DNA of 55,622 nucleotides, taken from positions 1-55,622 of the IMG/VR virus record IMGVR_UViG_3300042260_000361. The stretch is one strand, 5' to 3'. Under the pieces are notes generated by a model. It ran no database searches and was not told the origin of the DNA. It saw nothing but the letters and a program-made list of their open reading frames with translations. The position numbers and the translations under genes are program-made. Below, piece after piece: positions 2,015-54,167 of this stretch (positions are counted from its first letter, which is position 1; each line of letters begins with the position of its first letter). The stretch comes from a virus.

Positions 2015-3592
2015 ATGGCTTCTTTAAAAGACATAATTAAATTAGAGTATTCTAAGTGTGCTTCGGATCCTATATACTTTATGAAAAAGTATTGTATGAT
2101 TCAACACCCGGTCCGCGGAAAAATTCCATTTCACTTATTTCCGTTTCAGGACAGAACCTTAGTAGAATTTAAAGACCATAGATATAACATTGTATTAAAA
2201 TCCCGACAAACAGGTATTTCTACTTTGGTTGCGGGATTTTCCCTTTGGAAGATGTTATTTAATCAAGATTACAACGTATTGGTAATTGCAACAAAACAAG
2301 AAGTTGCGAAAAACTTAATTACCAAAATTAGAGTAATGAATCAGTATCTACCAAGTTGGTTAAAACAAGATACGGTAGAAGATAATAAACTTTCACTTAG
2401 ATATGCAAATGGTTCTCAAGCAAAGGCAACTTCATCTTCTGGAGATGCAGGTCGTTCTGAAGCCTTATCTCTATTAGTATTTGACGAGGCTGCGTTTATC
2501 GATAATATTGAGGAAATTTGGATATCTGCACAATCTACGTTATCAACGGGTGGTAGTGCAATTATTCTTTCTACTCCAAATGGTGTGGGTAATTTCTTTC
2601 ACAGAACATGGGTAGGTGCAGAAGAAGGAACAAACGATTTCAATACAATTCGATTACACTGGTCAGTTCATCCAGAACGAGATCAAAGTTGGAGAGATGA
2701 ACAAGCAAGATTATTAGGACCAAAGGGTGCAGCACAAGAATGTGATTGTGACTTCGTAAGTTCCGGTGATACTGTCATCGATCCTGAATTACTTATGTTT
2801 TACAAAGAAACATATGTACAAGAACCAATTGAGAAGACTGGATGGGATTCTAACCTATGGAAATGGGAATATCCAAATTATAATAAAGGATATATGGTTG
2901 TTGCCGACGTTGCCCGTGGTGATGGTGGTGACTACTCTGCATGTCATGTCTTTGATATTGAAACTGCAACACAAGTAGCAGAATATAAAGGAAAAATGGA
3001 TACCAAAGATTTCGGTAATTTCTTAGTTGCATTGGCAACCGAATATAATGAAGCACTTTTAGTAATAGAGAACGCGAATATTGGTTGGGCAGTAATTCAA
3101 CAAGTAATTGATAGAGGATATCGTAATTTATTCTATATGAGTAAGGATTTAAAGTATGTAGATGTTCAACATCAACTACATAATAAATTCAGAGCAGAAG
3201 AAAGAGGTATGGTTGCAGGATTCTCTACTACATCTAAAACTCGTCCTTTGATTATTTCTAAATTAGAGGATTATGTTAGAGAAAAATCAGTTACAATTCG
3301 TTCATCGAGGTTAATAGAAGAACTATTTACATTTATATGGGTTGGTAATCGTGCAGAGGCAATGAGAGGGTATAATGATGACTTGGTGATGTCTTTAGGT
3401 ATTGGATTATGGGTTAGAGATACTGCACTTCGTTTAAGACAAGAGGGAGTTGATTTAACTAAAATGGCAATCGGTGGAATTCAACAACATTCATTCACAT
3501 TAGATGGGTTTGGTGGTAATTCATCATTAGATGAGAACCCTTGGAAAATGAGAGTTGGTGATAGAGATGAAGATTTATCACAATGGTTGTAA
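2015..3592 (+). CDS. Terminase large subunit (gp17-like ATPase/nuclease)
   Basis: 525 residues, the DNA-packaging motor that docks on the portal and cuts concatemers. The N-terminal ATPase has the T4-type Walker A SRQTGIST (63-70), Walker B LLVFDE (153-158) and coupling motif STPNG (186-190). The C-terminal RNase H-like nuclease has acidic residues at D298 (VVADVARGDGGD), E352 (LVIENANIG) and D455/D456 (YNDDLVMS). Length is close to T4 gp17. The start ATG at 2015 lies six bases after the preceding stop codon and has no SD. Downstream are a small capsid-targeted protein and the portal, as expected for a T4-like head module. Confidence 0.97.
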   Translation: MASLKDIIKLEYSKCASDPIYFMKKYCMIQHPVRGKIPFHLFPFQDRTLVEFKDHRYNIVLKSRQTGISTLVAGFSLWKMLFNQDYNVLVIATKQEVAKNLITKIRVMNQYLPSWLKQDTVEDNKLSLRYANGSQAKATSSSGDAGRSEALSLLVFDEAAFIDNIEEIWISAQSTLSTGGSAIILSTPNGVGNFFHRTWVGAEEGTNDFNTIRLHWSVHPERDQSWRDEQARLLGPKGAAQECDCDFVSSGDTVIDPELLMFYKETYVQEPIEKTGWDSNLWKWEYPNYNKGYMVVADVARGDGGDYSACHVFDIETATQVAEYKGKMDTKDFGNFLVALATEYNEALLVIENANIGWAVIQQVIDRGYRNLFYMSKDLKYVDVQHQLHNKFRAEERGMVAGFSTTSKTRPLIISKLEDYVREKSVTIRSSRLIEELFTFIWVGNRAEAMRGYNDDLVMSLGIGLWVRDTALRLRQEGVDLTKMAIGGIQQHSFTLDGFGGNSSLDENPWKMRVGDRDEDLSQWL

Positions 3593-4161: not shown

Positions 4162-5895
4162 ATGGCGGATACTTCATTTTTCGGTAGATTAACTAAACTT
4201 TTCCAATCTAAGGCAGTTGTGACTGTTGATAAAGATGGTAAAAGAAAAGTTTTTGATGCAGATGAAAGACAGCAAACGAATTTATCATCATTAAGAGATA
4301 GATACACAAAAATTCAAAAATCCTTTTTTGAACAAGCAGGTGGTGCACAATCAATGGCATACCAACAAGTTCGTAGAGAAGTATTTAGAGATTATGATGC
4401 AATGGATTGTGATCCAATCTTAGCATCTGCATTAGATATTTACGCGGATGAATCTACATTAAAAAATGAATTTGGTGATATATTAACCGTTCGTTCCGAT
4501 AATCAAAAAGTACAAGAAGTATTAGATAACTTATTTTACGATATTCTTAACGTTGAATTTAACTTATGGCCATGGGTTCGTAATATGTGTAAGTATGGTG
4601 ATTTTTTCTTAGGTTTAGAGATTGCCGAAGGTAAAGGTATCGTAAATGTAACACCCCATTCAGTATATAACACAGAAAGATTAGAAGGACAAGACCCAAA
4701 TAATCCAAATGTAGTTAAATTTAAAGTAACTGAAGACCCGAATGGTAAAGTAGAATACGAAAACTTTGAAATTGCACACTTTCGTTTATTAGCAGATACA
4801 AACTGGTTACCATATGGTAAGTCAATGATTGAAAATGGTAGAAGATTGTGGAAACAATTGAGTTTAATGGAAGATGCAATGTTAATCCATAGAATCATGA
4901 GAGCACCTGAAAAAAGAGTGTTCAAAATTGATATAGGTAACATTCCACCAACTGAAGTAGATAACTATATGCAAAGAATTATCAACAAAATGAAGAAAGT
5001 TCCTTTCGTTGATAAAAATAGTGGTGATTACAACTTAAAATACAACATGCAGAACTTAACGGAAGATTTCTTCTTACCGGTTAGGGGAGGTGATAGTGGA
5101 ACATCAATTGAAAACCTTGCAGGATTAGATTATGCAGCAATTGATGATATTGAATACTTAAAAGCTAAATTATTTGCTGCTCTTAAAATTCCTAAAGCAT
5201 ATTTGGGATATGATGAGAATGTAAATGGTAAAGCAACACTTGCAGCGGAAGATGTTCGTTTTGCAAGAACAATTGAAAGAATCCAAAGGACAGTAGTTTC
5301 AGAATTAAGTAAAATAGCAATCGTGCATTTATACGCACAAGGTATTACTGATTCAGAAATGACTAACTTTGAATTGCAATTAGTTAATCCATCAACTATA
5401 TACGAACAAGAGAAAGTAAATCTTTGGTCAGAAAAAGTTAGATTAGCACAAGATATGCAAGGATTGAATATGTTAAGTAAAGATTGGATTTATGAAAATA
5501 TCTTCAAAATGGCACAAGGTGATCAAACTCGTGAAAGAGGTAAGATTATTGAAGATATTAAAGATAGATTCCGTTATAGTTCTATTGAAAATCAAGGTAA
5601 TGACCCTGCAGTGGAAAGCGAACCTAATGATGTTGAGGAAAGTTTAGAACAAATCAAAACTGAATTAGCAAATAAAGGTGGAAGGCCAAGAGAAGGTAAT
5701 ACCTATGGTAAAGATAAATCACCATTTGGAAGAGACCCATTAGGTGATAAGGAAAATAAAAATGCACTTAAACACAGAACATCTGAAGAAAGAGCATTAC
5801 AATATATCAATGGAATTGCTTCAAAACGTAAATATTTAGCAGAACAAAAAGGTATGTTAGATGAGACTAATATCATCGATGACACGCAAAATTAA
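4162..5895 (+). CDS. Portal vertex protein (gp20-like)
   Basis: 577 residues, slightly longer than T4 gp20. It forms the dodecameric portal through which DNA is packaged and to which the neck attaches. The core reads like T4-type portals: SMAYQQVRREVFRDYDAMD, ASALDIYADES, WPWVRNMCKYGDFFLGLEI, LLADTNWLPYGKSMIENG and LKIPKAYLGYDENVNGK. The last 90 or so residues are hydrophilic and Lys/Glu-rich, ending in KYLAEQKGMLDETNII. It lies after the terminase and before the protease/scaffold/capsid group, as in T4. No clear SD precedes the ATG; the leader is A-rich. Confidence 0.96.
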   Translation: MADTSFFGRLTKLFQSKAVVTVDKDGKRKVFDADERQQTNLSSLRDRYTKIQKSFFEQAGGAQSMAYQQVRREVFRDYDAMDCDPILASALDIYADESTLKNEFGDILTVRSDNQKVQEVLDNLFYDILNVEFNLWPWVRNMCKYGDFFLGLEIAEGKGIVNVTPHSVYNTERLEGQDPNNPNVVKFKVTEDPNGKVEYENFEIAHFRLLADTNWLPYGKSMIENGRRLWKQLSLMEDAMLIHRIMRAPEKRVFKIDIGNIPPTEVDNYMQRIINKMKKVPFVDKNSGDYNLKYNMQNLTEDFFLPVRGGDSGTSIENLAGLDYAAIDDIEYLKAKLFAALKIPKAYLGYDENVNGKATLAAEDVRFARTIERIQRTVVSELSKIAIVHLYAQGITDSEMTNFELQLVNPSTIYEQEKVNLWSEKVRLAQDMQGLNMLSKDWIYENIFKMAQGDQTRERGKIIEDIKDRFRYSSIENQGNDPAVESEPNDVEESLEQIKTELANKGGRPREGNTYGKDKSPFGRDPLGDKENKNALKHRTSEERALQYINGIASKRKYLAEQKGMLDETNIIDDTQN

Positions 5896-8707: not shown

Positions 8708-8721
8708 TATAAAGGATAGAT

Positions 8722-9315
8722 ATGAAATCATTATTAATAGAAACTAACCTATTTGAAGGTAAGGTAAATGAGGATGAAGGTGGGAGAACTCTTGTAAAGG
8801 GTATCCTACAACGTGCTGGTGCCGAAAATCAAAATGGTAGAGTATATCCTATGGAAATTCTAAGAAGAGAAGCTCAAAAATACGAGCAACTTATTAAAGA
8901 ACGTAGAGCGTTGGGAGAATTAGACCATCCAGATTCATCTGTAATCAATTTAAAGAACGTTTCTCATAACATTAAGGAAATCCATTGGGAAGGTAATGAT
9001 TTGTGTGGGACAGTTGAAATACTACCAACTCCATCGGGTAATATCTTAAAAGAATTATTAAGAGCGGGAATCCTTTTAGGAATTTCTTCTCGAGGTATGG
9101 GTTCAGTATCACCAATGGGTGAAGGTAAAGTAAAAGTAGGTGAAGATTTTGAATTAATTGGTTGGGATTTTGTTTCTAACCCATCTACACATGGTGCATT
9201 TATGACACCATTACAAGAATCCGTAAATAAACAAATACAAGAACAAGCAGTAGTATGTGGTGATTTCTGTAAGGCACAAGACCTTATGAGAGAAATTATT
9301 ACTGAATTAGCATAA
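8722..9315 (+). CDS. Prohead core protease (gp21-like)
   Basis: 197 residues, close to T4 gp21. This serine protease matures the prohead by cutting scaffold, capsid and internal proteins. Visible features are the N-terminal LLIET, the conserved ENQNGRVYPMEIL, a catalytic-histidine region GELDHPDS (H69) and the serine region LGISSRGMGS (S122/S123), followed by GWDFVSNPSTHGAF. The order and spacing fit the herpesvirus/T4 assemblin-type protease fold. It follows AAGGA closely after the EF-hand-like protein and lies among genes whose products carry (L/I/V)-x-E triads, its likely substrates. It may process itself, for example near VNE at 15-17. Confidence 0.93.
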   Translation: MKSLLIETNLFEGKVNEDEGGRTLVKGILQRAGAENQNGRVYPMEILRREAQKYEQLIKERRALGELDHPDSSVINLKNVSHNIKEIHWEGNDLCGTVEILPTPSGNILKELLRAGILLGISSRGMGSVSPMGEGKVKVGEDFELIGWDFVSNPSTHGAFMTPLQESVNKQIQEQAVVCGDFCKAQDLMREIITELA

Positions 9316-9779: not shown

Positions 9780-10994
9780 ATGATTAAATTACAACAATTA
9801 CTTAACGAAGAAACTTTTACTGCTACTAATAAAGCAACAGGTAAAACATCGGTTTTCAAATCAAAAGATAGTAGAGATGCTGCAATTAAAGCAGGAACTC
9901 ATGATGAGAAAAAAGATGCCCCAACTGATAAAGGTAATGCAACAAAAGGAAATAAAACCCCAAAAGTAAATATCTTTGATAAACCATCAAAATCAGAACC
10001 AAAATCAGACACACCTAAAGCAACTCCTGCTGATTTAGCAGTTGATAAAGTTGTTTACAATACAAGAACAAAGACAGTTGGTATTGTAAGAATTGCAGAT
10101 GAAAGAGGTGAAACTAAAACTGATGCAGATGGTAATGTAAATTCATCTGAATTAGAACCATACAACCCAATGAAGTATCCACATCAAAAAGATGCTAAAG
10201 TTGCACCATCTACACAAAAAGAAGTAGATAGTAGAGGTTTATGGAATCCATTTGCACAAGATAAAGAAACATCTAAGGAAGAACCTAAATCAGAACCTAA
10301 ACAAAGAAAAGGTGTTCCTGCAGTAAATAAAGCAGTTAGACAACAAGCTCAAAAATTAGGAATTACTCCTGAAAAATTGGGTAAAGATGAATATTTGAAG
10401 AAAATGGCTCAAGCAGCAGTTTCTGCACTTACTGATTCAAACTTCCATCCTGAAGCAAGACAATTAGTTGCTGATTTAGAAGGTAAACCAGAAATGGCAG
10501 AGAAACCTGATTACCCATCAATGAAAGACCCAAAATATAAAGAAAAGATGGATGCTATAAGAGCTAAATACGATTCTGTATATAATACACCTGATAAAGA
10601 TGCAGATGAATTGGGAACTTCGGCATCACAATCTGCTGAGTGGAGTGGTGATACTGCAATCGATGCAATTGCATTTGATTTAAGAATGAACGGATTCCAC
10701 AAAATGGCAGATAAGATACAATCAGTAATCAAAGAAGGTAAAGTTAATAGAACTTCACTTATGAGAATACTGAATGAATCGGAAGCAGAAGAAATTGCCA
10801 ATTTAACTGGATTAAGAACTCAAGCTGTTAAGAAATTTATTGATGATAATAATATTGATGATAGAAAGTTATTAGCATATCTTAAAATAAAAGGACCTAA
10901 GACTTTAAGTAATAGAATGGATATGGCAACTGCAATTGTTGGTAAACCAGGAAACAAATATAGTCAAGGAATCATTAAAGCATTTAGTAAATAG
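9780..10994 (+). CDS. Putative capsid-targeted internal head protein, low-complexity centre
   Basis: 404 residues. It begins MIKLQQLLNEETF, nearly the same capsid-targeting-like start as the gene at 3645, with a processing triad LNE (8-10). A long Lys/Asp/Pro/Ser-rich low-complexity stretch follows to about residue 180, then helical segments. A second LNE occurs at 331-333. The C-terminal part (NLTGLRTQAVKKFIDDNNID and onward) resembles a small helical fold. AGGA lies upstream. It is a candidate for an abundant protein packaged with the DNA or ejected into the host; no enzymatic motif seen. Confidence 0.72.
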   Translation: MIKLQQLLNEETFTATNKATGKTSVFKSKDSRDAAIKAGTHDEKKDAPTDKGNATKGNKTPKVNIFDKPSKSEPKSDTPKATPADLAVDKVVYNTRTKTVGIVRIADERGETKTDADGNVNSSELEPYNPMKYPHQKDAKVAPSTQKEVDSRGLWNPFAQDKETSKEEPKSEPKQRKGVPAVNKAVRQQAQKLGITPEKLGKDEYLKKMAQAAVSALTDSNFHPEARQLVADLEGKPEMAEKPDYPSMKDPKYKEKMDAIRAKYDSVYNTPDKDADELGTSASQSAEWSGDTAIDAIAFDLRMNGFHKMADKIQSVIKEGKVNRTSLMRILNESEAEEIANLTGLRTQAVKKFIDDNNIDDRKLLAYLKIKGPKTLSNRMDMATAIVGKPGNKYSQGIIKAFSK

Positions 10995-11002
10995 GAGAAT
11001 AG

Positions 11003-11467
11003 ATGATTAAATTATCACAAATATTAAAAGAAGGTGAAGAAAGACAACAAAGTCAAATGTCATCTGAATTAAAGAAACATTTTTTAGAAATCGTATCTAC
11101 ATACAACAAGTATCAAGAACAGATGGATAGAAAATCGGATTTAGCAACTATCGCCGAAACATTGGGTGGTATAACTGAAGCAGCCAGAGCACTTGCATTA
11201 AATGAAGGTGATGATTGGTTTGATAAAGTAACCATCAAACGTAATATGAATGAGTTGGAGAAACTTGGTAAAGAATTTGATAAGTGTGCTTCAGAAGCAA
11301 ACTCGTTAGACCAACGTATGGGTGGATTATATGAAGATATGGGACACATTCTTTCTCGTTACTACAAATTAGGTGAAATATCCGAAGAACAAATGAAAAC
11401 AAGATTAGGTATCACAAACGAATCAGTAAAAACATCTAAAGGATGTGATATTTGTGATAAAAAATAA
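11003..11467 (+). CDS. Putative capsid-targeted helical head protein
   Basis: 154 residues, mostly alpha-helical. The N-terminus MIKLSQILKEGEE belongs to the same leader family as the genes at 3645 and 9780, with LKE at 8-10 as probable processing site. A second triad, LNE, occurs at 66-68 (ALALNEGDDW). The middle has heptad-like spacing and could form a coiled coil. The C-terminus ends CDICDKK, a CxxC pair that might bind metal or form a disulfide. AGGAG precedes the start. Function unknown. Confidence 0.72.
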   Translation: MIKLSQILKEGEERQQSQMSSELKKHFLEIVSTYNKYQEQMDRKSDLATIAETLGGITEAARALALNEGDDWFDKVTIKRNMNELEKLGKEFDKCASEANSLDQRMGGLYEDMGHILSRYYKLGEISEEQMKTRLGITNESVKTSKGCDICDKK

Positions 11468-11473
11468 TTTATA

Positions 11474-11483
11474 TATATTTATA
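11474..11483 (+). promoter_or_regulatory. Late-type promoter box, bS21 gene
   Basis: TATATTTATA 29 bases before the bS21 start codon. The spacing matches that at the tube, neck and baseplate genes, so bS21 is probably transcribed with the late class. Confidence 0.52.
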
Positions 11484-11512
11484 CAAAGTTACAAACAATT
11501 TAAATTAAATTA

Positions 11513-11776
11513 ATGAGCGGAATATCAAGATGCACAGTCGAAGTTCGTAATGGTGACATTACAAAGGCTTTGAAAATCTTTAAAAAGAAAGTTATGGAAA
11601 GTGGTCATCTCTTAGAATTAAGAGAACGTAAAGAATACGTTAAACCAACTACTAAACGAAGATTGGTTAAACAGAAGGCAGTAAGAGAAGAACAAAAGAG
11701 AGTTATTCTTGAGAAAATAGCCGATGGTGACCAAAAATTACGTTTTTATACAAAAAAACGTAAGAAAAAGGAATAA
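11513..11776 (+). CDS. rpsU: Ribosomal protein bS21 homologue
   Basis: 87 residues, very basic. The bS21 signature is clear: NGDITKALKIFKKKVMESG, then LLELRERKEYVKPTTKRRL, matching the helical bS21 core; the R-E-x-Y-x-KPTT-x-R pattern looks closer to proteobacterial bS21 than to typical Flavobacteriia forms as I recall them. A C-terminal basic extension ends TKKRKKKE. bS21 sits on the 30S platform beside the 3' end of 16S rRNA. A TATATTTATA box at 11474-11483 precedes it but no SD does. It lies between internal head proteins and the scaffold gene, so it is probably made late. Phage bS21 homologues are known; the effect on the host ribosome is inferred. Confidence 0.9.
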   Translation: MSGISRCTVEVRNGDITKALKIFKKKVMESGHLLELRERKEYVKPTTKRRLVKQKAVREEQKRVILEKIADGDQKLRFYTKKRKKKE

Positions 11777-11820: not shown

Positions 11821-11861
11821 TATATTTATTATCAATTAACTCACACTCAATGTGAGTTTTT
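11821..11861 (+). promoter_or_regulatory. Late-type box plus 5'-proximal hairpin, scaffold/capsid leader
   Basis: TATATTTATT at 11821-11830 is followed by a hairpin: AACTCACA (11838-11845), loop CTCAA, TGTGAGTT (11851-11858), then a short T-run. If transcription starts about 10 bases after the box, the hairpin sits at the very 5' end of the scaffold-capsid mRNA. It could protect the mRNA, or act as a weak terminator for the upstream unit. The leader continues for about 120 bases to the ATG. Confidence 0.5.
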
Positions 11862-11981
11862 ATATTAAGTTGGTTAATGAATACCCTTCTATATAAGGTG
11901 TGACCGAACAACCGACCTAACTTTAATCTATATTGGAATTCTCCTAATAATTTCACAGAACAAACACAAGGAAGGTAAAAA

Positions 11982-13034
11982 ATGGCAAATTCAAAATTGT
12001 TAAAAGAAGCAATTGCTGATGCTAAGGCCGTTAGAGAAACTGCAATCGCTAATGCAAAAATCGCATTAGAAGAAGCTTTTACTCCAAGATTACAATCTAT
12101 CTTATCTAAAAAACTTCAATCAGAGATGGAAGGTGAAGAAGAAGAAGCAGATGTAAACGAAGAGTATGGTGTTGAAGACACATCAGATGCTGATTCATCA
12201 GCAATTGGTGATGGTGACAACAAACAACCTGCAGATGACGCTAATGACTCATCAGACATTGCACAATCAAACCCGGATACAGACGTAGAAACTGCAGAAA
12301 CAGGCGAAGAAGATGAAAACATCGAAGTAGTTGCTGAAGCAGAAGAAGACGAAGTTCCAGGAGAAACTCAATCTCGTATCGAAGAAGAAGACGAAGACGA
12401 ATTGGATTTAGAATCAATCATCAGAGAATTGGAAGATGAATTAGGTGGTGAAGAACCAACTGAAGAAGAACCATCTCAAGAAGAATCAGTTTACGAAGAA
12501 GAAGAATCTGAAGAAGCATCAGAAGAACCAGCAGTTGAAGAAGCTGAAGGTGAAGATGAAGAAATCGATTTAGATGAAATCTTACGTGAAATGGGATACG
12601 GAGATGATGAAGAAGCAGTTGAAGAAGGTGAAGAAGAAGCAGATGCAGCTATGGCAGCAAAAGATGCTGAATTGGAAGAAGCTTACAACGTAATCAAATC
12701 TCTAAAATCAACAATCAACGAAGTTAATTTGTTAAATGCAAAATTATTGTACACAAACAAATTATTCCGTTCATACGATTTGACTAATGAGCAAAAACAC
12801 AAAGTTGTTGAAACTTTAGACAGAACTCAAAACGTTAGAGAAGTAAAATTAGTGTTCTCTACTTTGGCAGAATCAATGAAAATTGGTGGAACTGCTAAAA
12901 AAGTAAAAGCACAAACAAAATTAACTGAATCATTTGCTTCTAAGCAAGTTGCTTCAACTGCACCAAAAAGAGAAATCATCGCAGAAAGCAATCAATTAGC
13001 AGACAGATTCAAGCAATTAGCAAATATTAAATAA
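11982..13034 (+). CDS. Prohead scaffold/core protein (gp22-like)
   Basis: 350 residues with a very acidic middle (long Glu/Asp runs from about 40 to 220) flanked by helical ends. This composition and the position directly before the major capsid gene are those of T4-type gp22, the core scaffold degraded by gp21. Candidate processing triads are LKE near the start (7-9), INE in the middle and IAE at 333-335 near the C-terminus, leaving a short C-terminal peptide. A strong SD (AAGGAAGG) lies before the ATG. The leader is about 150 bases long and starts with a hairpin just after a late-type box. Co-transcribed with the capsid gene (27-base gap). Confidence 0.85.
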   Translation: MANSKLLKEAIADAKAVRETAIANAKIALEEAFTPRLQSILSKKLQSEMEGEEEEADVNEEYGVEDTSDADSSAIGDGDNKQPADDANDSSDIAQSNPDTDVETAETGEEDENIEVVAEAEEDEVPGETQSRIEEEDEDELDLESIIRELEDELGGEEPTEEEPSQEESVYEEEESEEASEEPAVEEAEGEDEEIDLDEILREMGYGDDEEAVEEGEEEADAAMAAKDAELEEAYNVIKSLKSTINEVNLLNAKLLYTNKLFRSYDLTNEQKHKVVETLDRTQNVREVKLVFSTLAESMKIGGTAKKVKAQTKLTESFASKQVASTAPKREIIAESNQLADRFKQLANIK

Positions 13035-13060
13035 CAAAACAAACATTAGGAGAAAATAAA

Positions 13061-14689
13061 ATGGCAAATTTCGATTTATCAAAACTAATGGAAGGAAAGA
13101 ACCCACAACAAGTAATGTTGGCTGAAACACGTCAATTACAATCTAAGTGGGAAAAAACTGGACTTCTTGAAGGTTTAAAAAGCAGAGAGCAATCTCAAAT
13201 TGCAGTTCTTTTAGAGAACCAAGCAAAACAATTATTGGATGAAGCAACAGCAACAGGTACTTCTGCAGGTTCAGAAGAGTGGTCTGGTGTAGCACTTCCA
13301 TTAGTAAGACGTATTTTTGGTGAAATCGCAGCGAAAGAATTCGTTTCGGTTCAACCAATGAACTTACCATCAGGTCTAATATTCTTTTTAGATTTTAAAT
13401 ATGGAACAGCACAACCGGGTAACCCATCATACGCTGGAAAATCTTTATTCGGTGGTAACGGAACTTCTGCAGCTAATTCTGACTTCGGTAGAACTAAAGC
13501 AGCAGTAAATGGTCTTTATGGTGAAGGTCGTTTCGGATATTCAATCAACGATCAATCAGTAGCAGTAGCAGCAGGTAACCAATCATTTGCAACTGCATCT
13601 TGGTCAGATGTTGGATTCGATTCAGCATTATCTGCATCAATCGCAGCTTCACAAATCGCTAAGATTTCAGTATCAAAAGCAAACGTATCTGCAGTTTCTG
13701 ACGTAGATGCAGTTCGTTCATTCTACATCTCATCTTCAGTATTCGCAGCAGCAGATTCATTCTACCCAGCGTATTCTCAATTTGATGGTGCAAACTACAC
13801 ATTCTTCGCTAAAGTTGCTAACATTTCTTCAGGTTCAAACTCAACTACTTTGACAGTTAAGTATTCTGAGCAACCTGCAGCTTATGATAGAGGTGATTTC
13901 GAAGATGGTAACCCAACAGAACCGGCTACTGATTTAGGTATCCCAGAAGTTGATTTAGAATTGAAATCAGAGGCTATCGTTGCTAAGACTCGTAAGTTGA
14001 AAGCAGTGTGGACTCCAGAATTGGCTCAAGATTTAAATGCTTACCACTCAATTGATGCTGAAGCAGAATTAACATCTATGTTATCTGAATATATCTCATT
14101 AGAGATTGACTTAGAAATCTTAGATATGTTAAAAGCTAACGCTTTAACAACTGAATATTGGTCAGTAACTTTAGGTGAAGAGTATAATTCAGCAACAGGT
14201 GCATGGTTAGCAGGAACAAACTCTGCAGCATACACTAAAAACACATGGTTCCAGACTTTAGGTGCTAAAATCAACAAAGTATCTAACAAGATTCACCAAT
14301 TAACATTACGTGGTGGTGCTAACTTCATCGTAGCTTCTCCAGACGTATGTACGGTATTGGAATCTATTCCTGGATTCGTAGTAAACGCAGATAAAGATGC
14401 AATGTCATTCGCAGCTGGTGTAACAGCAGTTGGTTCTATGGCAAATCGTTATACGGTTTACAAAAACCCTTATATGACATCTAACGAAATCTTATTAGGT
14501 TTCAAAGGTTCAAACTTCTTGGAGACTGGAGCAGTTTACGCACCATACGTTCCATTGATTATGACACCATTAGTGTACGATCCAACTAACTTCACGCCAA
14601 GACGTGGTGTTATGACTCGTTACGCTAAGAAGATGGTAAGACCAGAATTCTATGGTAAGATTTATGTTAAAGATTTAGCTAATATCTAA
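13061..14689 (+). CDS. Major capsid protein (gp23-like)
   Basis: 542 residues, close to T4 gp23. The N-terminal 61 residues form a charged helical propeptide ending KQLLDE; predicted gp21 cleavage after E61 leaves ATATGTSAG as the mature start, matching the T4 site near residue 65. The conserved region after it (EEWSGVALPLVRRIFGEIAAKE, SVQPMNLPSGLIFFLDFKYG) is the T4-type capsid signature. The C-terminus contains APYVPLIMTPLVYDPTNFTPRRGVMTRYAKKM. AGGAG precedes the start, and a strong rho-independent terminator follows. Expected to be the most abundant late protein. Confidence 0.97.
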   Translation: MANFDLSKLMEGKNPQQVMLAETRQLQSKWEKTGLLEGLKSREQSQIAVLLENQAKQLLDEATATGTSAGSEEWSGVALPLVRRIFGEIAAKEFVSVQPMNLPSGLIFFLDFKYGTAQPGNPSYAGKSLFGGNGTSAANSDFGRTKAAVNGLYGEGRFGYSINDQSVAVAAGNQSFATASWSDVGFDSALSASIAASQIAKISVSKANVSAVSDVDAVRSFYISSSVFAAADSFYPAYSQFDGANYTFFAKVANISSGSNSTTLTVKYSEQPAAYDRGDFEDGNPTEPATDLGIPEVDLELKSEAIVAKTRKLKAVWTPELAQDLNAYHSIDAEAELTSMLSEYISLEIDLEILDMLKANALTTEYWSVTLGEEYNSATGAWLAGTNSAAYTKNTWFQTLGAKINKVSNKIHQLTLRGGANFIVASPDVCTVLESIPGFVVNADKDAMSFAAGVTAVGSMANRYTVYKNPYMTSNEILLGFKGSNFLETGAVYAPYVPLIMTPLVYDPTNFTPRRGVMTRYAKKMVRPEFYGKIYVKDLANI

Positions 14690-14751: not shown

Positions 14752-14772
14752 ATGCAAGATATATTTAAATTT

Positions 14773-15516
14773 ATGAAACCAATTAGATTATTTACGTTTG
14801 GATGCAGTTTTACTAATTACAACTGGCCTACATGGGCCGATATAATTGGGAGTAAATATAAACTTCATTATAATTTAGGAAGTAAGGGTGCTGGAAATTA
14901 TTATATTGCATTTAAACTATACGAAACTCACTTAAAATATAACATTACTAAAGATGATAAGGTAATCATTATGTTAAGTAGTGCAAATAGATTTGATATT
15001 TATGATGAACGTATTAATAAATTTAATCTAAATGGAAATATATACAATTCAGAGCATATATTTGGTAAAAAATTTGTAAAAGAAGTGTGGAATGATACTC
15101 ATTCAATTTATAATACGTGGTTTTGCGTTAAAAGTATAAAAACTTTATTAGATACTATTGGATGTCAATATAAAATTGTAGAAGCGTTTGGTTTATTAAA
15201 TACCGATACTGGCAATACTCTAAATACACATGATTCAACTAAAGATTTATTGAATGATTATAAAAATTCGGTATATACTATTCAAAATTTAAATAGATTT
15301 GCATTAAAATGCAATCCATCAACTTATAAATTATCAAATGGAAGACTTGATGGTCATCCAACTATTATGTGTAATCATAATTTTGTAAAAGAACATATAT
15401 CAGAATTTTATGATGATAAAATGTATGAAGTTGCACTAAAATGGGAATCCGAAATACTACCAGATGTAATGGAAACTAAGTTTTCCAAACAATACATCAA
15501 TACATCTTTATTGTAA
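14773..15516 (+). CDS. SGNH/GDSL-like hydrolase-fold protein
   Basis: 247 residues from ATG 14773; an ATG seven codons upstream (14752) abuts the capsid terminator and is less likely. The N-terminal strand and serine motif FTFGCSFTNYNWP is an SGNH block I variant (G-x-S). GSKGAGNYYIA provides the block II-like Gly and Asn. A C-terminal D-x-H-like motif (GRLDGHPTIM) supplies the usual catalytic Asp and His. Such proteins often remove acyl or acetyl groups from glycans. It stands alone between the capsid terminator and a separate transcription unit, so it looks like accessory cargo. A second SGNH-like protein lies at 42408. Substrate unknown. Confidence 0.65.
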   Translation: MKPIRLFTFGCSFTNYNWPTWADIIGSKYKLHYNLGSKGAGNYYIAFKLYETHLKYNITKDDKVIIMLSSANRFDIYDERINKFNLNGNIYNSEHIFGKKFVKEVWNDTHSIYNTWFCVKSIKTLLDTIGCQYKIVEAFGLLNTDTGNTLNTHDSTKDLLNDYKNSVYTIQNLNRFALKCNPSTYKLSNGRLDGHPTIMCNHNFVKEHISEFYDDKMYEVALKWESEILPDVMETKFSKQYINTSLL

Positions 15517-16589: not shown

Positions 16590-17285
16590 ATGAAGGATAA
16601 ACTTACAATTGTAATACCTTGTAAAAATGAAGGTATTATTATTTATGATTGTGTTCAAACACTTACACATCAGTATAATATAACATCTACCCAAATTGTA
16701 ATAGCAGATTGTTCTGATGAATCTGAATCACTACAATGGTTAGATAAATTACAAGATGATTTTGGTGATAAATTAAAAATAAAAATAATAAAGGGTGGAT
16801 TTCCTGCTAAAGCAAGATTAGAAGGAAGTAAATTGGTAAAAACTCCTTATTTACTATTTTTAGATGCAGATGTAATGTTATATGATAGAACTTTACTATA
16901 TGAATGTATTGAATATAATACAGATTTAGTATCAGTTCCATTCAAAACAGAAAAAAATTGGAATTGGGTATATACTATGTTTGATTTTTTCCAATTTATG
17001 AGTATTATATTAAATAGTCCTTTTGCAGTAGGTGGATTTCAATTATGGAAAACCGAAGAATATTGGAATTGTGGTGGATATAATCCAGAAGAGTTATTTG
17101 CGGAGGATTATTCAATATCATCTAAAGTATCTAAGTTAAAAATACACAAAACCAATGGTGTATGGACTTCTGCTAGAAGATTTAAAAACAAAGGAGTAAT
17201 ATGGATGTTCAAAATAATGATAATGAGTTATTTGAACCGAAACAATTCAGAATTTTTCAAACAGCATCACAACTATTGGACATGA
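16590..17285 (+). CDS. Glycosyltransferase family 2
   Basis: 231 residues with the GT-A fold. Visible are the nucleotide-sugar binding start TIVIPCKNEGIIIYD, the DxD-like LFLDADVMLYD that binds metal and sugar nucleotide, and the catalytic-base region FAEDYSISSKV. It lacks obvious C-terminal membrane anchors, although one hydrophobic patch (FDFFQFMSIILNS) could contact the membrane. The stop codon overlaps the start of the metallophosphoesterase gene (ATGA at 17282-17285), implying coupled translation and a shared pathway. A box like TTATTTATATA lies directly before the start. It probably modifies a cell-surface or phage glycan; sugar and acceptor unknown. Confidence 0.88.
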   Translation: MKDKLTIVIPCKNEGIIIYDCVQTLTHQYNITSTQIVIADCSDESESLQWLDKLQDDFGDKLKIKIIKGGFPAKARLEGSKLVKTPYLLFLDADVMLYDRTLLYECIEYNTDLVSVPFKTEKNWNWVYTMFDFFQFMSIILNSPFAVGGFQLWKTEEYWNCGGYNPEELFAEDYSISSKVSKLKIHKTNGVWTSARRFKNKGVIWMFKIMIMSYLNRNNSEFFKQHHNYWT

Positions 17286-18001
17286 AATACGAAGCAATTA
17301 TAGTATCTGATTTACATTTGGGAACAAAAGATTCAAAAACAGAAGAATTTTTAAATTTCATCGAAAAACATCCAACTGATTTATTAATTCTTAATGGAGA
17401 TATAGTTGATGGTTGGGCATTAGAACGTGGTGCAAAATGGAAAAAGAAATATACTAAAGTTATCAATAAATTATTAAAAATATCTAATAAAACTCAAATT
17501 ATTTGGATTAGAGGAAATCACGATGAATTCATAGGAGAATTTATTGGAACTCAATTCGGTAATGTTGAAATTAGAGAAGATTATGTTTTAAAATTAAAAA
17601 ATGATAAAAAATATTACATTTTTCACGGAGATGTAATTGATGTATTTATAACAAAATACAAATGGTTATCAAAAATAGGTTCAATAGGTTATGATTTTGC
17701 ACTTTGGTTAAATAGGGTGTATAATACCTATCGTAGATGGAGAAAATTACCTTATATATCTATATCTCAAAAAATCAAAGGTAAAGTAAAGGCTGCAACT
17801 AATTATATTAACGATTTTGAAACATCTGCACTTTCGATGGCTACTAAAAAGGGATGTGATGGGGTAATATGTGGCCACATACATCATCCAGAAGATATTA
17901 TGATAAATGGCAAACGATATCTTAATAGTGGTGATTGGGTTGAAAATATGAGTGCAATTCTTATAAAGGATGGTAAAATAATACTTAAAAAGGAAATTTA
18001 A
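17282..18001 (+). CDS. Metallophosphoesterase, LpxH-like
   Basis: 239 residues from the ATG at 17282. A longer frame from 17201 exists, but the ATGA overlap with the glycosyltransferase stop makes 17282 the better start. All calcineurin-like metal motifs are present: VSDLHLG (D10, H12), NGDIVDGW, IRGNHDEF, FHGDVID and CGHIHHPE. The layout, with an insert containing WLNRVYNTYRRWRKL, is like the UDP-2,3-diacylglucosamine pyrophosphatase (LpxH) family that acts on lipid A precursors, but many relatives hydrolyse other phosphoesters. With GT2 it suggests envelope lipid or glycan modification. A terminator follows immediately. Confidence 0.88.
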   Translation: MKYEAIIVSDLHLGTKDSKTEEFLNFIEKHPTDLLILNGDIVDGWALERGAKWKKKYTKVINKLLKISNKTQIIWIRGNHDEFIGEFIGTQFGNVEIREDYVLKLKNDKKYYIFHGDVIDVFITKYKWLSKIGSIGYDFALWLNRVYNTYRRWRKLPYISISQKIKGKVKAATNYINDFETSALSMATKKGCDGVICGHIHHPEDIMINGKRYLNSGDWVENMSAILIKDGKIILKKEI

Positions 18002-20558: not shown

Positions 20559-21640
20559 TGAGCACAGACCCATTTAAAAAACCTTTAAACAGAGGAACAC
20601 AACTAAAAACCGAACCCAAAAATCAAAGAGGGGTTAAGTTGTATGATATCGATATGGCCATTGCGGAACATATGATAGATACTGTCGTGCCAACGGTTGA
20701 AGCAATGGGTGAAAAAATAAAAATTCCTGTAATGTATGGAAATCCCGAAAGATGGAAATCAGTGCAAAAAGATGGGTATTTAAGAGATAAACAAGGAACG
20801 ATACAAATTCCTCTTATTATGTTTAAACGTAATTCGATTGCTAGAGATGATTCAATGACATCTACAATGAATCGTAATGTGTTTTATCCAACGGTGACAA
20901 AATACTCACAAAAACATAGATATGATTTGTTTTCTCAAATGACGGGAACTAAAAGACCAATTGAACAATACAACGTAACAATGCCGGATTATGTAACGGT
21001 TAGTTATGAGTGTATTATTTGGACAGATTTTACCGAACATATGAATAAAATCGTAGAAGCATTTCAATACGCAACAGATGAATATTGGGGTGATAAAAGT
21101 GGATTTAAATTTAGAGTAAGAATCGATTCATTTGATACAACTGCCGAAGTTGGTGAAGGTTCACAACGTATGGTTCGAACAAATTTTACTATGGCAGTAA
21201 ATGCTTATTTATTACCTGAAAAATTTGATAATCAACCAACTACAATAAAAACACTCTCACCTAAAAAGGTAGTATGGGGTGTTGAAACTGATTTAACTGG
21301 TAATTCACAATCTACTACGAAATTATACAATGAGTATTCGGATGTAATTGATTTTATGACTATTAGAGGTTCAGTTCAGGCTGAATTTATTAGTTCGAAT
21401 TCATTCAAATTAACAAATGTAGAATTACCAAAATTACCACCGGAATTAAGAGGTAGTTTTAATACGGATGATTGGTTTAGAGTTTATGTAAATGGGGTAT
21501 ATGTTCAACCAACAAAATATACTTATTCATTTAATTATAGTTTAAATGAAATTACATTTGAAGTTAATACAACTTCATTAGGTTATATTATTGAAATTAC
21601 TGATGAAATTGGAGTAACTGGTAAATTTATTGAATTATGA
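20558..21640 (+). CDS. Tail completion / sheath stabiliser (gp15-like) with extra C-terminal beta domain
   Basis: 360 residues. The first 220 or so (KLYDIDMAIAEHMIDTVVP, YGNPERWKSVQKDGYLRD, IPLIMFKRNSIARDDS, and NVTMPDYVTVSYECIIWTDF) fit the gp15 tail terminator family that caps the tail tube and sheath. The remaining 140 residues form an added beta-rich domain with WFRVYVNGVYVQPTKYTYSF, like fibre domains containing a V-NG-x-x-x-D/T-Y motif. Related motifs appear in the next two small genes. The stop overlaps the next start (ATGA). The gp15 assignment is from sequence feel and gene order. Confidence 0.7.
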   Translation: MSTDPFKKPLNRGTQLKTEPKNQRGVKLYDIDMAIAEHMIDTVVPTVEAMGEKIKIPVMYGNPERWKSVQKDGYLRDKQGTIQIPLIMFKRNSIARDDSMTSTMNRNVFYPTVTKYSQKHRYDLFSQMTGTKRPIEQYNVTMPDYVTVSYECIIWTDFTEHMNKIVEAFQYATDEYWGDKSGFKFRVRIDSFDTTAEVGEGSQRMVRTNFTMAVNAYLLPEKFDNQPTTIKTLSPKKVVWGVETDLTGNSQSTTKLYNEYSDVIDFMTIRGSVQAEFISSNSFKLTNVELPKLPPELRGSFNTDDWFRVYVNGVYVQPTKYTYSFNYSLNEITFEVNTTSLGYIIEITDEIGVTGKFIEL

Positions 21641-37564: not shown

Positions 37565-37593
37565 AACAAAAAATTTAACAGGAGTAATATAAA

Positions 37594-39906
37594 ATGGCAG
37601 AAAAAATTGTATCACCTGGTGTATTTACGAGAGAGAATGACCTTTCTTTTTTATCACAAGGAATCGGAGAAATAGGAGCAGCAATCATAGGACCTTTCGC
37701 TAAAGGACCTGCATTCGTTCCAACGATTGTTAATACACAATCTCAATTTGAATCAATTTTCGGTGTACCTAATGGTGATTACTATACAGGATATGCCGTT
37801 CAAAACTATCTACGTGAAGCAGGGACAGTAACAATTGTTCGTGTTGGTCACGTTGGTGGATATAACCAAATAGAACCAAAAGGTATCGCAGTTAGTGGTT
37901 CTGATGGAACTACATTAGTAGGTGTATTGAAATCTACTGATAAGTGGACAACTGACGGAAATGGTGATATCATCACTGGTTCTATCAACTCACAACCATC
38001 TTCATCAGAATTCAGTATCACATTAAGTGGTTCAGATGCTCAATATAACATTGCAATTTCATCATCAATCCTACCATCTGCTGGAAATGATTTATCAGAT
38101 GTATTTGGTGAATCTGCAAGAGGAACTAAAGGTGCATACGTTTCACAATATTTTGAAAACGCAGCATCTCAATTAACATCTTCTATTGATGCTGGTGCTA
38201 AAATTGTTTTGGTTGATTTAGATGACCAAAGTTTTATAGACCAAGATTGCACATTTGCTTCTACACCATGGATTCAATCACAATTGATTTCAAATGAAAG
38301 AAGTAACTTATTCCGTTTACATACTTTGGGTGATGGTACGAATTACAACAAAGAATATAAAGTTTCAGTATTTAACGTAAAAGCAGCAGGTGAATCAAAT
38401 GCTACTGATTACGCTACGTTCTCTTTATCAATCAGAGCATATTCAGATACAGATAAAAGAAAATCAGTATTAGAAACATATAATAACGTAAACTTAGACC
38501 CTGCATCTCCAAACTACATTTTAAAAGTAATTGGTGATAGAAACGTAACTATCGATGCAAATGGTAAACAAACTGAAAATGGTGATTATGCAAATCGTTC
38601 TAAGATAGTTAGAGTAGAAGTTGCAGCAGAAGGTTCATTCCCAATCATCGCAGGACCATTTGGACACGAAGCATACCAATCTCCAATCGCAGGTAACGAT
38701 TCAATCACACCAGCAGTTGTATTTACATTAGGTTCTGATGATAACACTTCATCATCATCTACTAAATATAGTGGTATTGATTTAGAATCAACTTTAATTA
38801 AAATAGATAACTCACATTTCTTAGCACCAATTCCAAACGGAGCAGGAAATGGAACAAATACTGCATTTGCATTCGATACTGAATTATCATACGAATTGAC
38901 GGGTTCTTCAACTGCAGATGTAAACAAAAGACAATTTATCGTTGGTTTCCAAGGTGGATTTGATGGTGTAACTCCAACAATATCTAATGATAAAGGAAAT
39001 GATATCTCAGCAGGTAACTCTCAAGGGTTTAACTTAGCAACATCTACATCAAATGGTTCAGTTGCATATTTGAAAGCAATTAACTCTGTATCTAATCCAG
39101 ATGATTTTGATATTAACTTAGTAGTTGCACCGGGTATTGTTAGATATCACCATTCATATGTATTTGATAAAATTATTGATATGGTTGAATCTCGTGAAGA
39201 TGCATTCTTCATCGGTGATGTAACTGGTCCTGCAGAAGGTCAAGATATTGCAGTAGAACAGGCACAGTCAATCGATTCTAACTACGTTGGAACATATTAC
39301 CCATGGATGAAAACAATCGATAGAAACACCAACAAATTAACTGCAGTTCCACCATCAGTATTGATGCCAGGAATATACGCAGCGAACGATGCAGTTGCAG
39401 CAGAATGGTTTGCACCAGCAGGTTTGAATAGAGGTGGAATCATCGGAGCAGTTTCAGTATTGGATAGATTAACACATTCAGAAAGAGATTTCTTATATGA
39501 GAACAAAGTAAATCCAATCGCTTCTTTCCCTGGTGAAGGTATCGTGGCATTTGGACAGAAAACTTTACAAGATAAAGCATCTGCATTGGATAGAATCAAT
39601 GTAAGAAGATTATTAATCAAAGTTAAGAAATATATCGCTTCTACATCTCGTTACTTAGTATTCGAACAAAATACTGCAACGACTAGAAACAAATTCTTAA
39701 ATACGGTAAATCCTTATTTAGATGCGATTCAACAAAGACAAGGTTTATATGCATTCAGAGTTGTAATGGATGAATCCAACAACACACCTGATGTAATTGA
39801 TAGAAACATTTTAGCAGGACAGATTTATTTACAACCTACTAAAACTGCTGAATTCATTGTGTTAGATTTCAACATCTTACCAACCGGAGCATCATTTACA
39901 GCATAA
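37594..39906 (+). CDS. Contractile tail sheath protein (gp18-like)
   Basis: 770 residues, longer than T4 gp18. N-terminal SPGVFTRENDLSFLSQG and GAAIIGPFAKGPAFVP are typical of T4-type sheath subunits, as is the C-terminal domain (LDRINVRRLLIKVKKYI, NPYLDAIQQRQGLYAFRVVMD, GQIYLQPTKTAEFIVLDF) that forms the interlocked inner layer. Variable Ser/Thr-rich insertions in the middle account for the extra length. A strong SD (AGGAG) precedes the ATG, and the leader begins with a GTGTA/TACAC hairpin after an ATACTTATAT box. A terminator follows. Confidence 0.96.
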   Translation: MAEKIVSPGVFTRENDLSFLSQGIGEIGAAIIGPFAKGPAFVPTIVNTQSQFESIFGVPNGDYYTGYAVQNYLREAGTVTIVRVGHVGGYNQIEPKGIAVSGSDGTTLVGVLKSTDKWTTDGNGDIITGSINSQPSSSEFSITLSGSDAQYNIAISSSILPSAGNDLSDVFGESARGTKGAYVSQYFENAASQLTSSIDAGAKIVLVDLDDQSFIDQDCTFASTPWIQSQLISNERSNLFRLHTLGDGTNYNKEYKVSVFNVKAAGESNATDYATFSLSIRAYSDTDKRKSVLETYNNVNLDPASPNYILKVIGDRNVTIDANGKQTENGDYANRSKIVRVEVAAEGSFPIIAGPFGHEAYQSPIAGNDSITPAVVFTLGSDDNTSSSSTKYSGIDLESTLIKIDNSHFLAPIPNGAGNGTNTAFAFDTELSYELTGSSTADVNKRQFIVGFQGGFDGVTPTISNDKGNDISAGNSQGFNLATSTSNGSVAYLKAINSVSNPDDFDINLVVAPGIVRYHHSYVFDKIIDMVESREDAFFIGDVTGPAEGQDIAVEQAQSIDSNYVGTYYPWMKTIDRNTNKLTAVPPSVLMPGIYAANDAVAAEWFAPAGLNRGGIIGAVSVLDRLTHSERDFLYENKVNPIASFPGEGIVAFGQKTLQDKASALDRINVRRLLIKVKKYIASTSRYLVFEQNTATTRNKFLNTVNPYLDAIQQRQGLYAFRVVMDESNNTPDVIDRNILAGQIYLQPTKTAEFIVLDFNILPTGASFTA

Positions 39907-40773: not shown

Positions 40774-40800
40774 TAACAATTATACAGGAGAATAATAATT

Positions 40801-41289
40801 ATGGCAGAAGTCCTTGAATTTAACGACATGTTCTATACCAATTTCGAACCAAAAACGAAAAATCGTTTTATCATGGAAATCGGTGGTATCCCTTCATATC
40901 TTATCAAAACAGCTAACAGACCATCGATTCAGTTTGAAACGATTACGTTAGATCATATCAACGTTAACAGAAAGTTGAAAGGTAAAGGAACTTGGCAACC
41001 AATAGAGATTACTCTTTTTGATCCAATCGTTCCAAGTGGTGCTCAAGCAGTAATGGAATGGGTTCGTTTATCACACGAATCATTAACAGGTAGAGATGGA
41101 TATGCAGATTTCTATAAGAAAGATGTTCAAATCTATATGTTAGGACCAGTAGGTGATAAAATTGAACAATGGACATTAAAAGGTGCATTTATCCAATCAG
41201 CAGCATTTAATGATTTGGATTGGTCATCAAACGATGTTTCAGAAATCTCCCTTACTTTAGAATACGATTACGCTATTCTAGAATTCTAA
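40801..41289 (+). CDS. Tail tube protein (gp19-like)
   Basis: 162 residues, the same size as T4 gp19. It forms the inner tube that delivers DNA. The pattern FYTNFEPKTKNRFIMEIGG, ANRPSIQFETITLDHINV, WQPIEITLFDPIVPSG and a C-terminal LTLEYDYAILEF is that of T4-like tubes. A strong AGGAG precedes the ATG, with an inverted repeat around the late-type box at 40758-40773. A terminator follows. In T4 it directly follows gene 18; here a homing endonuclease gene intervenes. Confidence 0.96.
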   Translation: MAEVLEFNDMFYTNFEPKTKNRFIMEIGGIPSYLIKTANRPSIQFETITLDHINVNRKLKGKGTWQPIEITLFDPIVPSGAQAVMEWVRLSHESLTGRDGYADFYKKDVQIYMLGPVGDKIEQWTLKGAFIQSAAFNDLDWSSNDVSEISLTLEYDYAILEF

Positions 41290-42407: not shown

Positions 42408-43145
42408 ATGTTAATAGTGTTTGGGGATTCATTTTCTGCGTTTAGAACCTATTTAAACGATGATAATACATTAGATTCAAATTTACATTGGACATCACTT
42501 ATATGCAATGATATGAAAATTGATGAAGTTGTTAATCATGCTAAACCAGGTGCAACTAATCAGTATATTTTAACTACATTAGTTGAACAACTTCCCAATA
42601 TTAAAAAAAATGATATTGTAATAATAAACACTTCGGGACAAGGTAGAATGCCAGTTGGTGCTAATTATACTAAAACATTTTTTAATGATAGTCCTAATTT
42701 ATTATGTTTATTAACTAATACTAATAGAATTATGGGTGATTTTGAAAAATCTCAAATAACTTGGTATTATGAAAATGTTTTTTTACCTGATATCGTAGAA
42801 TATGATGTAAATGTTTCGAATATCATTAATATTGCAAATTATATCAGTTCGATTGGGGTATGTGTAATATTGTGGAATTTAACTGCATTCGGATTCGATG
42901 GAGTATTAGATGTGAAACTGAATGATAACGTAGAAACAACCCCATCTATACCATTTACAGATTTATGGACACCATCTTCAAATAATGGTAAGAAGGGGTG
43001 GGTAGATATCATAAATGAAAAAAATTTACAAATGGGGTTAGATGATTGTCATCCAAACGTTAAAGGAAATCGATATATTGCAAATGAATTTATGGATACG
43101 ATTAAACGAAAACATCCGTTATATAAAAAAAAGAATATTATTTGA
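42408..43145 (+). CDS. SGNH/GDSL-like hydrolase, inserted between duplicated terminators
   Basis: 245 residues. It begins with a textbook SGNH block I (LIVFGDSFSAF, Ser8 region), then HAKPGATNQYIL with the block II/III Gly and Asn, and a C-terminal D-x-x-H block (LDDCHPNVKGNRYIA). It probably de-esterifies a glycan or modifies a surface sugar; substrate unknown. It stands between two 33-base identical copies of a gene end plus terminator (42346-42378 and 43151-43183), evidence that it was inserted by a duplication. Neighbours are baseplate and tape-measure genes. No clear SD. Confidence 0.82.
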   Translation: MLIVFGDSFSAFRTYLNDDNTLDSNLHWTSLICNDMKIDEVVNHAKPGATNQYILTTLVEQLPNIKKNDIVIINTSGQGRMPVGANYTKTFFNDSPNLLCLLTNTNRIMGDFEKSQITWYYENVFLPDIVEYDVNVSNIINIANYISSIGVCVILWNLTAFGFDGVLDVKLNDNVETTPSIPFTDLWTPSSNNGKKGWVDIINEKNLQMGLDDCHPNVKGNRYIANEFMDTIKRKHPLYKKKNII

Positions 43146-54135: not shown

Positions 54136-54167
54136 TTTGGAAATTATAAAAATAATCCGTATCTTTG
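54136..54167 (+). promoter_or_regulatory. Host-type (Bacteroidota) promoter, DNA polymerase gene
   Basis: TTTG at 54136-54139 and TATCTTTG at 54160-54167, spacing 20 bases. The ATG at 54172 follows by four bases, so transcription should begin at or next to the start codon. Confidence 0.76.

Follow-up and report, generated by a model that had tools for sequence, protein, structure and literature searches.

What does a gene for a ribosomal protein do in the midst of a phage's head genes? Masking of the anti-Shine-Dalgarno (anti-SD) sequence that depends on the ribosomal protein bS21 was reportedly described in Flavobacterium johnsoniae by Jha et al. in 2021. In the Bacteroidia, three proteins, bS21, bS18 and bS6, keep hold of the 16S rRNA 3' tail, and Tyr54 of bS21 stacks on A1534 (PMC9976891); in Bacteroidota classes such as Flavobacteriia 1-3% of genes carry an SD (PMC10783764). 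No other ribosomal protein is encoded by phages as often as bS21, and earlier work has proposed that the phage protein takes the place of its host counterpart (PMC6375957, PMC9723584, PMC9976891). We analyzed a bS21 gene in a stretch of viral DNA of 55,622 nucleotides (IMG/VR record IMGVR_UViG_3300042260_000361, positions 1 to 55,622), which we call the window. An initial annotation had suggested that this bS21 could switch the ribosomes of a Bacteroidota host to SD-bearing late mRNAs of the phage.

Judged by family, the gene encodes an ordinary bS21. Its product scores 54 bits on Ribosomal_S21 (PF01165; cut-off 27, E 8e-16), the alignment spans profile positions 1-53 of 55, and by Pfam it is the sole bS21 copy in the record. 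Past the family domain, the protein ends in about 20 residues that are basic in character (KKRKKKE) and weakly predicted, in agreement with the basic C-terminal extension that had been noted at the outset. The AlphaFold model has a pLDDT of 77 and a pTM of 0.36, with helices at residues 16-30, 32-39 and 47-70, and its top Foldseek matches are mitochondrial small ribosomal subunit chains with weak scores (best E 1.1). The remark that the KPTT region is nearer to other phyla was also upheld, since phmmer gave 29 bits against bS21 from E. coli and 24 bits against that from F. johnsoniae. The features of the window that bear on the gene are as follows.

2015-3592, plus strand: terminase large subunit gene, no SD (PHROGs 2 and 213, the terminase/portal pair)
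4162-5895, plus strand: portal gene, no SD in the window (PHROGs 2 and 213, the terminase/portal pair)
8722-9315, plus strand: prohead protease gene, gp21-like (PHROG 207), SD AAAGGA at 8711-8716
11003-11467, plus strand: late gene with no assigned function directly 5' of the bS21 gene, SD AGGAG at 10993-10997
11474-11482, plus strand: late-type promoter box TATATTTAT 5' of the bS21 gene (from sequence; motif enriched and strand-biased between genes)
11490-11512, plus strand: bS21 leader, short, A/T-rich and without an SD (by duplex energy)
11513-11776, plus strand: bS21 gene (rpsU-like), 87 aa, MSGISRCTVEVRNGDITKALKIFKKKVMESGHLLELRERKEYVKPTTKRRLVKQKAVREEQKRVILEKIADGDQKLRFYTKKRKKKE (open reading frame and Pfam match)
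11821-11829, plus strand: second late-type box, 5' of the scaffold-like gene (from sequence; the gene at 11982 is the first behind it)
11838-11858, plus strand: hairpin followed by a U run, between the 11821 box and the scaffold-like gene (fold and sequence)
11982-13034, plus strand: acidic scaffold-like gene, so called from position and acidity only, SD AAGGA(AGG) at 11968-11975
13061-14689, plus strand: major capsid gene, gp23-like (PHROG 138, E 6e-74), SD AGGAG at 13048-13052
37594-39906, plus strand: tail sheath gene (Pfam PF17482 and PF04984), SD AGGAG at 37580-37584
40801-41289, plus strand: tail tube gene, gp19-like (PF06841), SD AGGAG at 40786-40790
54160-54167, plus strand: Bacteroidota-type -7 element TATCTTTG 5' of an SD-less DNA polymerase A-like gene

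The bS21 gene is inside the terminase-portal-protease-capsid region and on the same strand as the head genes, between the prohead protease gene at 8722 and the scaffold-like and capsid genes at 11982 and 13061, so that the scaffold/capsid neighborhood described earlier is correct. By homology the window is a T4-like myovirus module, with homologues of gp17, gp20, gp21, gp23, a contractile sheath and gp19. Comparison with relatives indicates that it is a fragment of a larger T4-like phage of about 288 kb. The genome G001 (288,673 bases) covers the window at approximately 88% nucleotide identity and has a bS21 that is 99% identical. G002 (287,455 bases) is related more distantly. G005 (252,603 bases) has the module in common, at 60-84% protein identity for those core genes that were compared, and has its bS21 gene at a different genomic location. 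The scaffold-like product (11982-13034) gave no family match, the leader of this gene folded no better than its shuffles (z -0.9), and no RNA element in the window matched Rfam. The hairpin at 11838-11858 is either the terminator of the bS21 transcript or a leader hairpin of the next one.

If the phage bS21 acts on the masking of the anti-SD, residue 54 is the place to look. In F. johnsoniae, SD-dependent translation goes up when bS21 carries Y54A or is truncated at its C-terminus; with Y54A alone, a strong-SD reporter yielded 70% more GFP in vivo, and threefold more protein was made in vitro (PMC9976891). To locate position 54 we counted without gaps from the invariant KP, which is K40-P41 in the F. 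johnsoniae protein, with the reference sequence of that species verified against 7JIL. The bS21 of the window has Arg58 at the position of Tyr54, and Arg occupies this position throughout the window clade and in G005. The phage protein has therefore lost the equivalent of the Tyr that stacks on the 16S rRNA tail, whereas Tyr is present in 80 of the 80 flavobacterial host bS21s checked. In a set of phages examined by Chen et al. in 2022, Tyr, His or Phe was found at position 54 in 61 of 61 bS21s and masking was concluded to be kept (PMC9723584). Many other bacteria normally have Arg54. By analogy with Y54A, we propose that Arg54 would unmask the anti-SD inside a Bacteroidia ribosome. No phage copies of bS18 or bS6 were found; these two proteins remain those of the host and thus part of the anti-SD pocket would persist.

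The leader of the phage bS21 gene also differs from that of its host counterpart. The duplex energy between this leader and CCUCCUUUCU is +2.0 kcal/mol, that is, there is no pairing, and the leader lacks an SD in all four genomes (the window, G001, G002 and G005). By contrast, the rpsU leaders of all 80 flavobacterial hosts have an SD of six or more bases. This is the reverse arrangement.

The promoters of these phages bear on both the timing of bS21 and the host. The late-type box that had been noticed before the bS21 gene belongs to a motif that is enriched and strand-biased between genes, with 8 copies in the window against 0.6 in shuffled sequence and none antisense, and 23 in G001 against 0.9 with 2 antisense. 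Early promoters of the form TTTG-N16-22-TAnnTTTG were also enriched between genes relative to shuffled sequence (15 against 0.8 in G001, 14 against 0.3 in G002 and 12 against 0.7 in G005), with 2, 1 and 0, respectively, on the antisense strand and a spacing of exactly 20 in nearly all. The window contains one full promoter of the early type. The DNA polymerase A-like gene (54172-55473) is a weak match and its listed start is perhaps slightly too far upstream. We take the TTTG-N-TAnnTTTG form to be that of the Bacteroidota sigma-A promoter. The early promoters in the 288-kb relatives thus support a Bacteroidota host, as the initial annotation had guessed, and the class of this host we infer. 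The promoter alone does not prove a host with Tyr54 because many genomes of the wider phylum carry an Arg54 bS21; the SD-less early genes do argue for a Tyr54 host. The tmRNA tag was considered as a marker of host class and rejected, since the tag of G002, GVNNYALAA, resembles the tags of both kinds of genome.

We then asked where in these genomes SDs are found. Genes were called mechanically as ATG open reading frames, and an SD was defined as at least 4 bases of anti-SD complement containing GG at positions -19 to -5, with shuffles of the same leaders giving the expectation. Genes were assigned as late by homology and promoter box. Among structural homologues, SDs preceded 23 of 41 genes in the window (6.8 expected), 25 of 42 in G001 (8.7), 22 of 39 in G002 (7.7) and 14 of 28 in G005 (3.7), or about 3-4 times the number in shuffled leaders. 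In other genes the counts were 49/356 in G001 (32.2 expected), 49/331 in G002 (29.1) and 35/252 in G005 (21.3), and late and other genes differed by Fisher's test in each genome (2.9e-10, 3.5e-8 and 2.8e-5). First genes behind the late box had SDs in 12 of 27 cases in G001 (4.0 expected), 11 of 22 in G002 (3.1) and 6 of 18 in G005 (2.5). First genes behind early promoters had 0 of 18, 3 of 18 and 1 of 12, respectively. As a control, in-frame internal ATGs in the late genes of G001, G002 and G005 had an SD fraction of 0.15-0.22, compared with 0.50-0.60 at the starts of late genes and about 0.14 at the starts of other genes. Thus, the starts of other genes show no SD use and late starts do. Anti-SD duplex energy also sets late genes apart from the others (p 5e-7 in G001).

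The usual position of an SD is -12 to -10, and this is where G content peaks in late genes (0.26-0.31 compared with about 0.1). Not all late genes follow the pattern: the terminase, the portal and several others have no SD. Terminase is SD-less in all four genomes despite its location in the late module, and the portal has an SD only in G005. Chance purine runs are excluded as the source of the signal by the leader shuffles, the internal-ATG control and conservation, and SD use across the whole phage is excluded by the genome-wide profile. The SD-bearing late genes that had been predicted are therefore present, with SDs concentrated there and near background elsewhere.

SDs were maintained while the leaders around them changed. 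Among late orthologues of G001 and G002, whose leaders have diverged, 17 have an SD in both genomes, 8 in one and 10 in neither. In front of the capsid gene, each of the four genomes has an SD, written in different letters (TTAGGAG, CTAAGGAG, AAAAAGGA). Genes outside the module with an SD in both G001 and G002 include, judging from their sequences, ones for a putative gp25-like baseplate protein, tail-fibre-like proteins and a GH19-like lysin; the remaining ones have no assigned role.

In Bacteroidota phages without bS21, there is no clear excess of late SDs (immuto 1/18, phi14:2 1/30, FCL-2 3/38 and PTm1 1/18); crAss001 is slightly up at 8/28 against 4.4 expected. Six contigs with a Tyr54 bS21 (G018 and G021-G025) had SDs in 0 of 18 of their few recognisable structural genes and background levels elsewhere. 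Across 57 bS21 clusters, the mean SD fraction of flanking genes was 0.22 where residue 54 is aromatic and 0.51 in the others (p 2.6e-4). This correlation is only a tendency and is confounded by host and ancestry. A rule by which Arg54 means SDs and Tyr54 means none in all phages was rejected because there are exceptions in both directions. Tyr54 contigs L085/G008, L219 and L232 have SDs despite the aromatic residue, LR756508 (Met) and L128 (Leu) are non-aromatic without SDs, and the Arg54 contigs L095, L116 and L214 have few. The bS21 tree is poorly resolved, with at least 6 label changes, 2 of them forced. One of the exceptions, G008, has sigma-70-like TTGACA motifs (11 against 3.1 shuffled), and it probably has another host.

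Taken with the published effects of bS21, these patterns suggest a mechanism. Host ribosomes would be blind to SDs as long as the 16S rRNA 3' tail is kept in place by their own bS21 (Tyr54), bS18 and bS6, and the SD-less early genes of the phage would suit such unmodified ribosomes. In the late phase, phage bS21 would be made from its SD-less leader, which makes it translatable by intact host ribosomes. This protein, with Arg for Tyr54 and a long basic tail, could then replace host bS21 on 30S subunits and, lacking Tyr54, let the anti-SD go. Initiation would become biased to SD-bearing late mRNAs for structural, tail and lysis proteins and away from SD-less mRNAs. We regard it as reasonably probable, though with considerable doubt, that the phage protein takes over from host bS21, releases the anti-SD and shifts the preference of ribosomes in this manner. 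We put at slightly better than even the chance that the swap of one protein switches host ribosomes from SD-independent to SD-dependent initiation, with the early and bS21 genes fitted to the first mode and the late genes to the second. The size of the Y54A effect in F. johnsoniae makes a partial bias the realistic expectation. The ribosome-switch reading of the initial annotation is partly supported, by the loss of the Tyr54 equivalent and by the concentration of SDs in late genes; the exchange of bS21, the unmasking of the anti-SD and a need for the phage protein in late translation are inferred steps. Neither the restriction of SDs to late genes nor the SD-less bS21 leader was part of that annotation. 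A freed anti-SD should also boost host rpsU with its strong SD, which would be adverse to the phage unless host mRNA is gone. In addition, the one phage bS21 that has been tested made E. coli ribosomes nearly inactive (PMC6375957).

It is unlikely that the host comes from a Chlorobia, Ignavibacteria or Rhodothermia-like lineage with its own Arg54 bS21 and partial SD use, that the phage protein simply resembles the host's, and that the late SDs reflect high expression. Such proteins are common, since, of the 26 bS21s that were scored from the 30 best-scoring loci in the wider Bacteroidota phylum, 21 had Arg54; the sampled Arg54 genomes do use SDs somewhat (81/205 compared with 51.6 expected), and the tmRNA tag of G002 resembles those of Arg54 as well as Tyr54 genomes. 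However, an SD-using host fits poorly with the SD-less genes behind early promoters (0/18, 3/18 and 1/12). In a small sample, TAnnTTTG was enriched upstream of genes in Tyr54 genomes (24 against 10 antisense) and hardly so in Arg54 genomes (12 against 8), and the GC content of the sampled Arg54 genomes was 0.35-0.65 compared with 0.31 in the phage. Phage bS21 might also work in the mode proposed by Chen et al. in 2022, substituting for host bS21 and selecting phage mRNAs via its N-terminal helix while bS18 and bS6, which stay those of the host, hold the anti-SD and the late SDs are of little consequence. Replacement and late expression have been argued for those related phages (PMC9723584), but all of them are aromatic at position 54 and the window clade is not, and this mode gives no reason for the upkeep of late SDs in diverging genomes. 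We consider it quite unlikely.

The late SDs could instead be read, in the manner of host rpsU mRNA, by host 30S subunits without any bS21, if the phage depleted host bS21 or made new subunits outrun it, with phage bS21 restoring general activity only. F. johnsoniae ribosomes lacking bS21 translate SD mRNAs, and the authors of that work speculate that phages may remove host bS21 (PMC9976891). Phage bS21 made in the same late phase would close this bS21-less interval unless it too were non-masking, which is the displacement model again, and no bS21-specific protease was identified; we judge depletion very unlikely. We give slightly less credence still to the idea that the late SDs are left over from an ancestor in SD-using hosts, or came with a late module taken from such a phage. 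SDs are indeed used throughout by related T4-like phages that infect other hosts (G006, G009 and Mel-JY01). Against a relic, SDs were retained or re-formed with other letters as leaders diverged and also occur at a distance from the module, in genes for baseplate, fibre and lysis proteins, and the Flavobacterium phage immuto has head proteins 49-55% identical to those of the window and no SDs.

Displacement of host bS21 with release of the anti-SD can be set beside several known systems. The freshwater-lake Bacteroidetes myophages of Chen et al. (PMC9723584) resemble the window in having bS21 in the head-gene region, with late expression and Bacteroidota hosts proposed. They differ in that their bS21 is on the strand opposite the head genes and has Tyr, His or Phe at position 54, whereas the window has the same strand, Arg54 and late SDs. 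In F. johnsoniae, the same ribosomal protein and residue govern SD recognition (McNutt et al. 2023, PMC9976891), but there the effect serves feedback on one gene, rpsU, while the phage has an SD-less bS21 gene and SD-bearing late genes. Pelagiphage HTVC008M is also T4-like, and its bS21, on expression in E. coli, enters the ribosomes there (Mizuno et al. 2019, PMC6375957); the host of HTVC008M is an alphaproteobacterium, where, unlike for the window phage, masking of the anti-SD is no issue. Flavobacterium phage immuto (NC_055915) has the related terminase, portal, protease and capsid at the identities given above, but lacks both a bS21 gene and SDs in the module (1/18). In the literature searched, we did not find the combination of Arg54, SDs confined to late genes and an SD-less bS21 leader in one Bacteroidota phage. 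The published general idea that phage bS21 favours phage mRNA would thus become a specific, testable mechanism with a code that is readable in mRNA leaders. Phage-encoded bS21 is common, and here a proposed function can be tested directly; if true, the composition of the ribosome would control the timing of gene expression, a possibility that has been debated for a long time.

Several other features of these genomes were observed. Behind the capsid gene of the window, a GGGAGAA...TTCTCCC hairpin with a T run is followed by a gene for 254 aa (14752-15516) whose product had no family match and no orthologue in G001, G002 or G005. Genes for a glycosyltransferase (PF00535) and a metallophosphoesterase are within the structural module (16590-18001), and GDSL lipase-like and phytanoyl-CoA dioxygenase-like genes are at 42408-43145 and 51210-51992. 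In a sister lineage with an Arg54 bS21 (L162, L167, L171, L172, L175 and L178), the bS21 leader ends in AAAGGAGA abutting the ATG, which is too close for a normal SD. The Microcystis phage Mel-JY01 (PP395634.1; L002 and L234-L243) has a Lys54 bS21 and genome-wide SDs, and it has promoters of the Bacteroidota form TTG-N20-TAnnTTTG (23 against 1.1 shuffled); the cyanobacterial host on record for it would be worth verifying. Both 288-kb relatives contain a GOLLD RNA (RF02032, 260 and 261 bits) at L047:883-1294 (G001 20883-21294) and L069:29-436 (G002 160029-160436), adjoining a tmRNA gene and about 25 tRNAs. The phage tmRNA genes are at L046:19030-19404 and L068:18606-18951. The tag encoded in G002 is one residue off that of F. 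defluvii (GENNYALAA), and the tag of G001 according to ARAGORN is unusual, AEEKSSFTFADAMAFVGADLAVAA.
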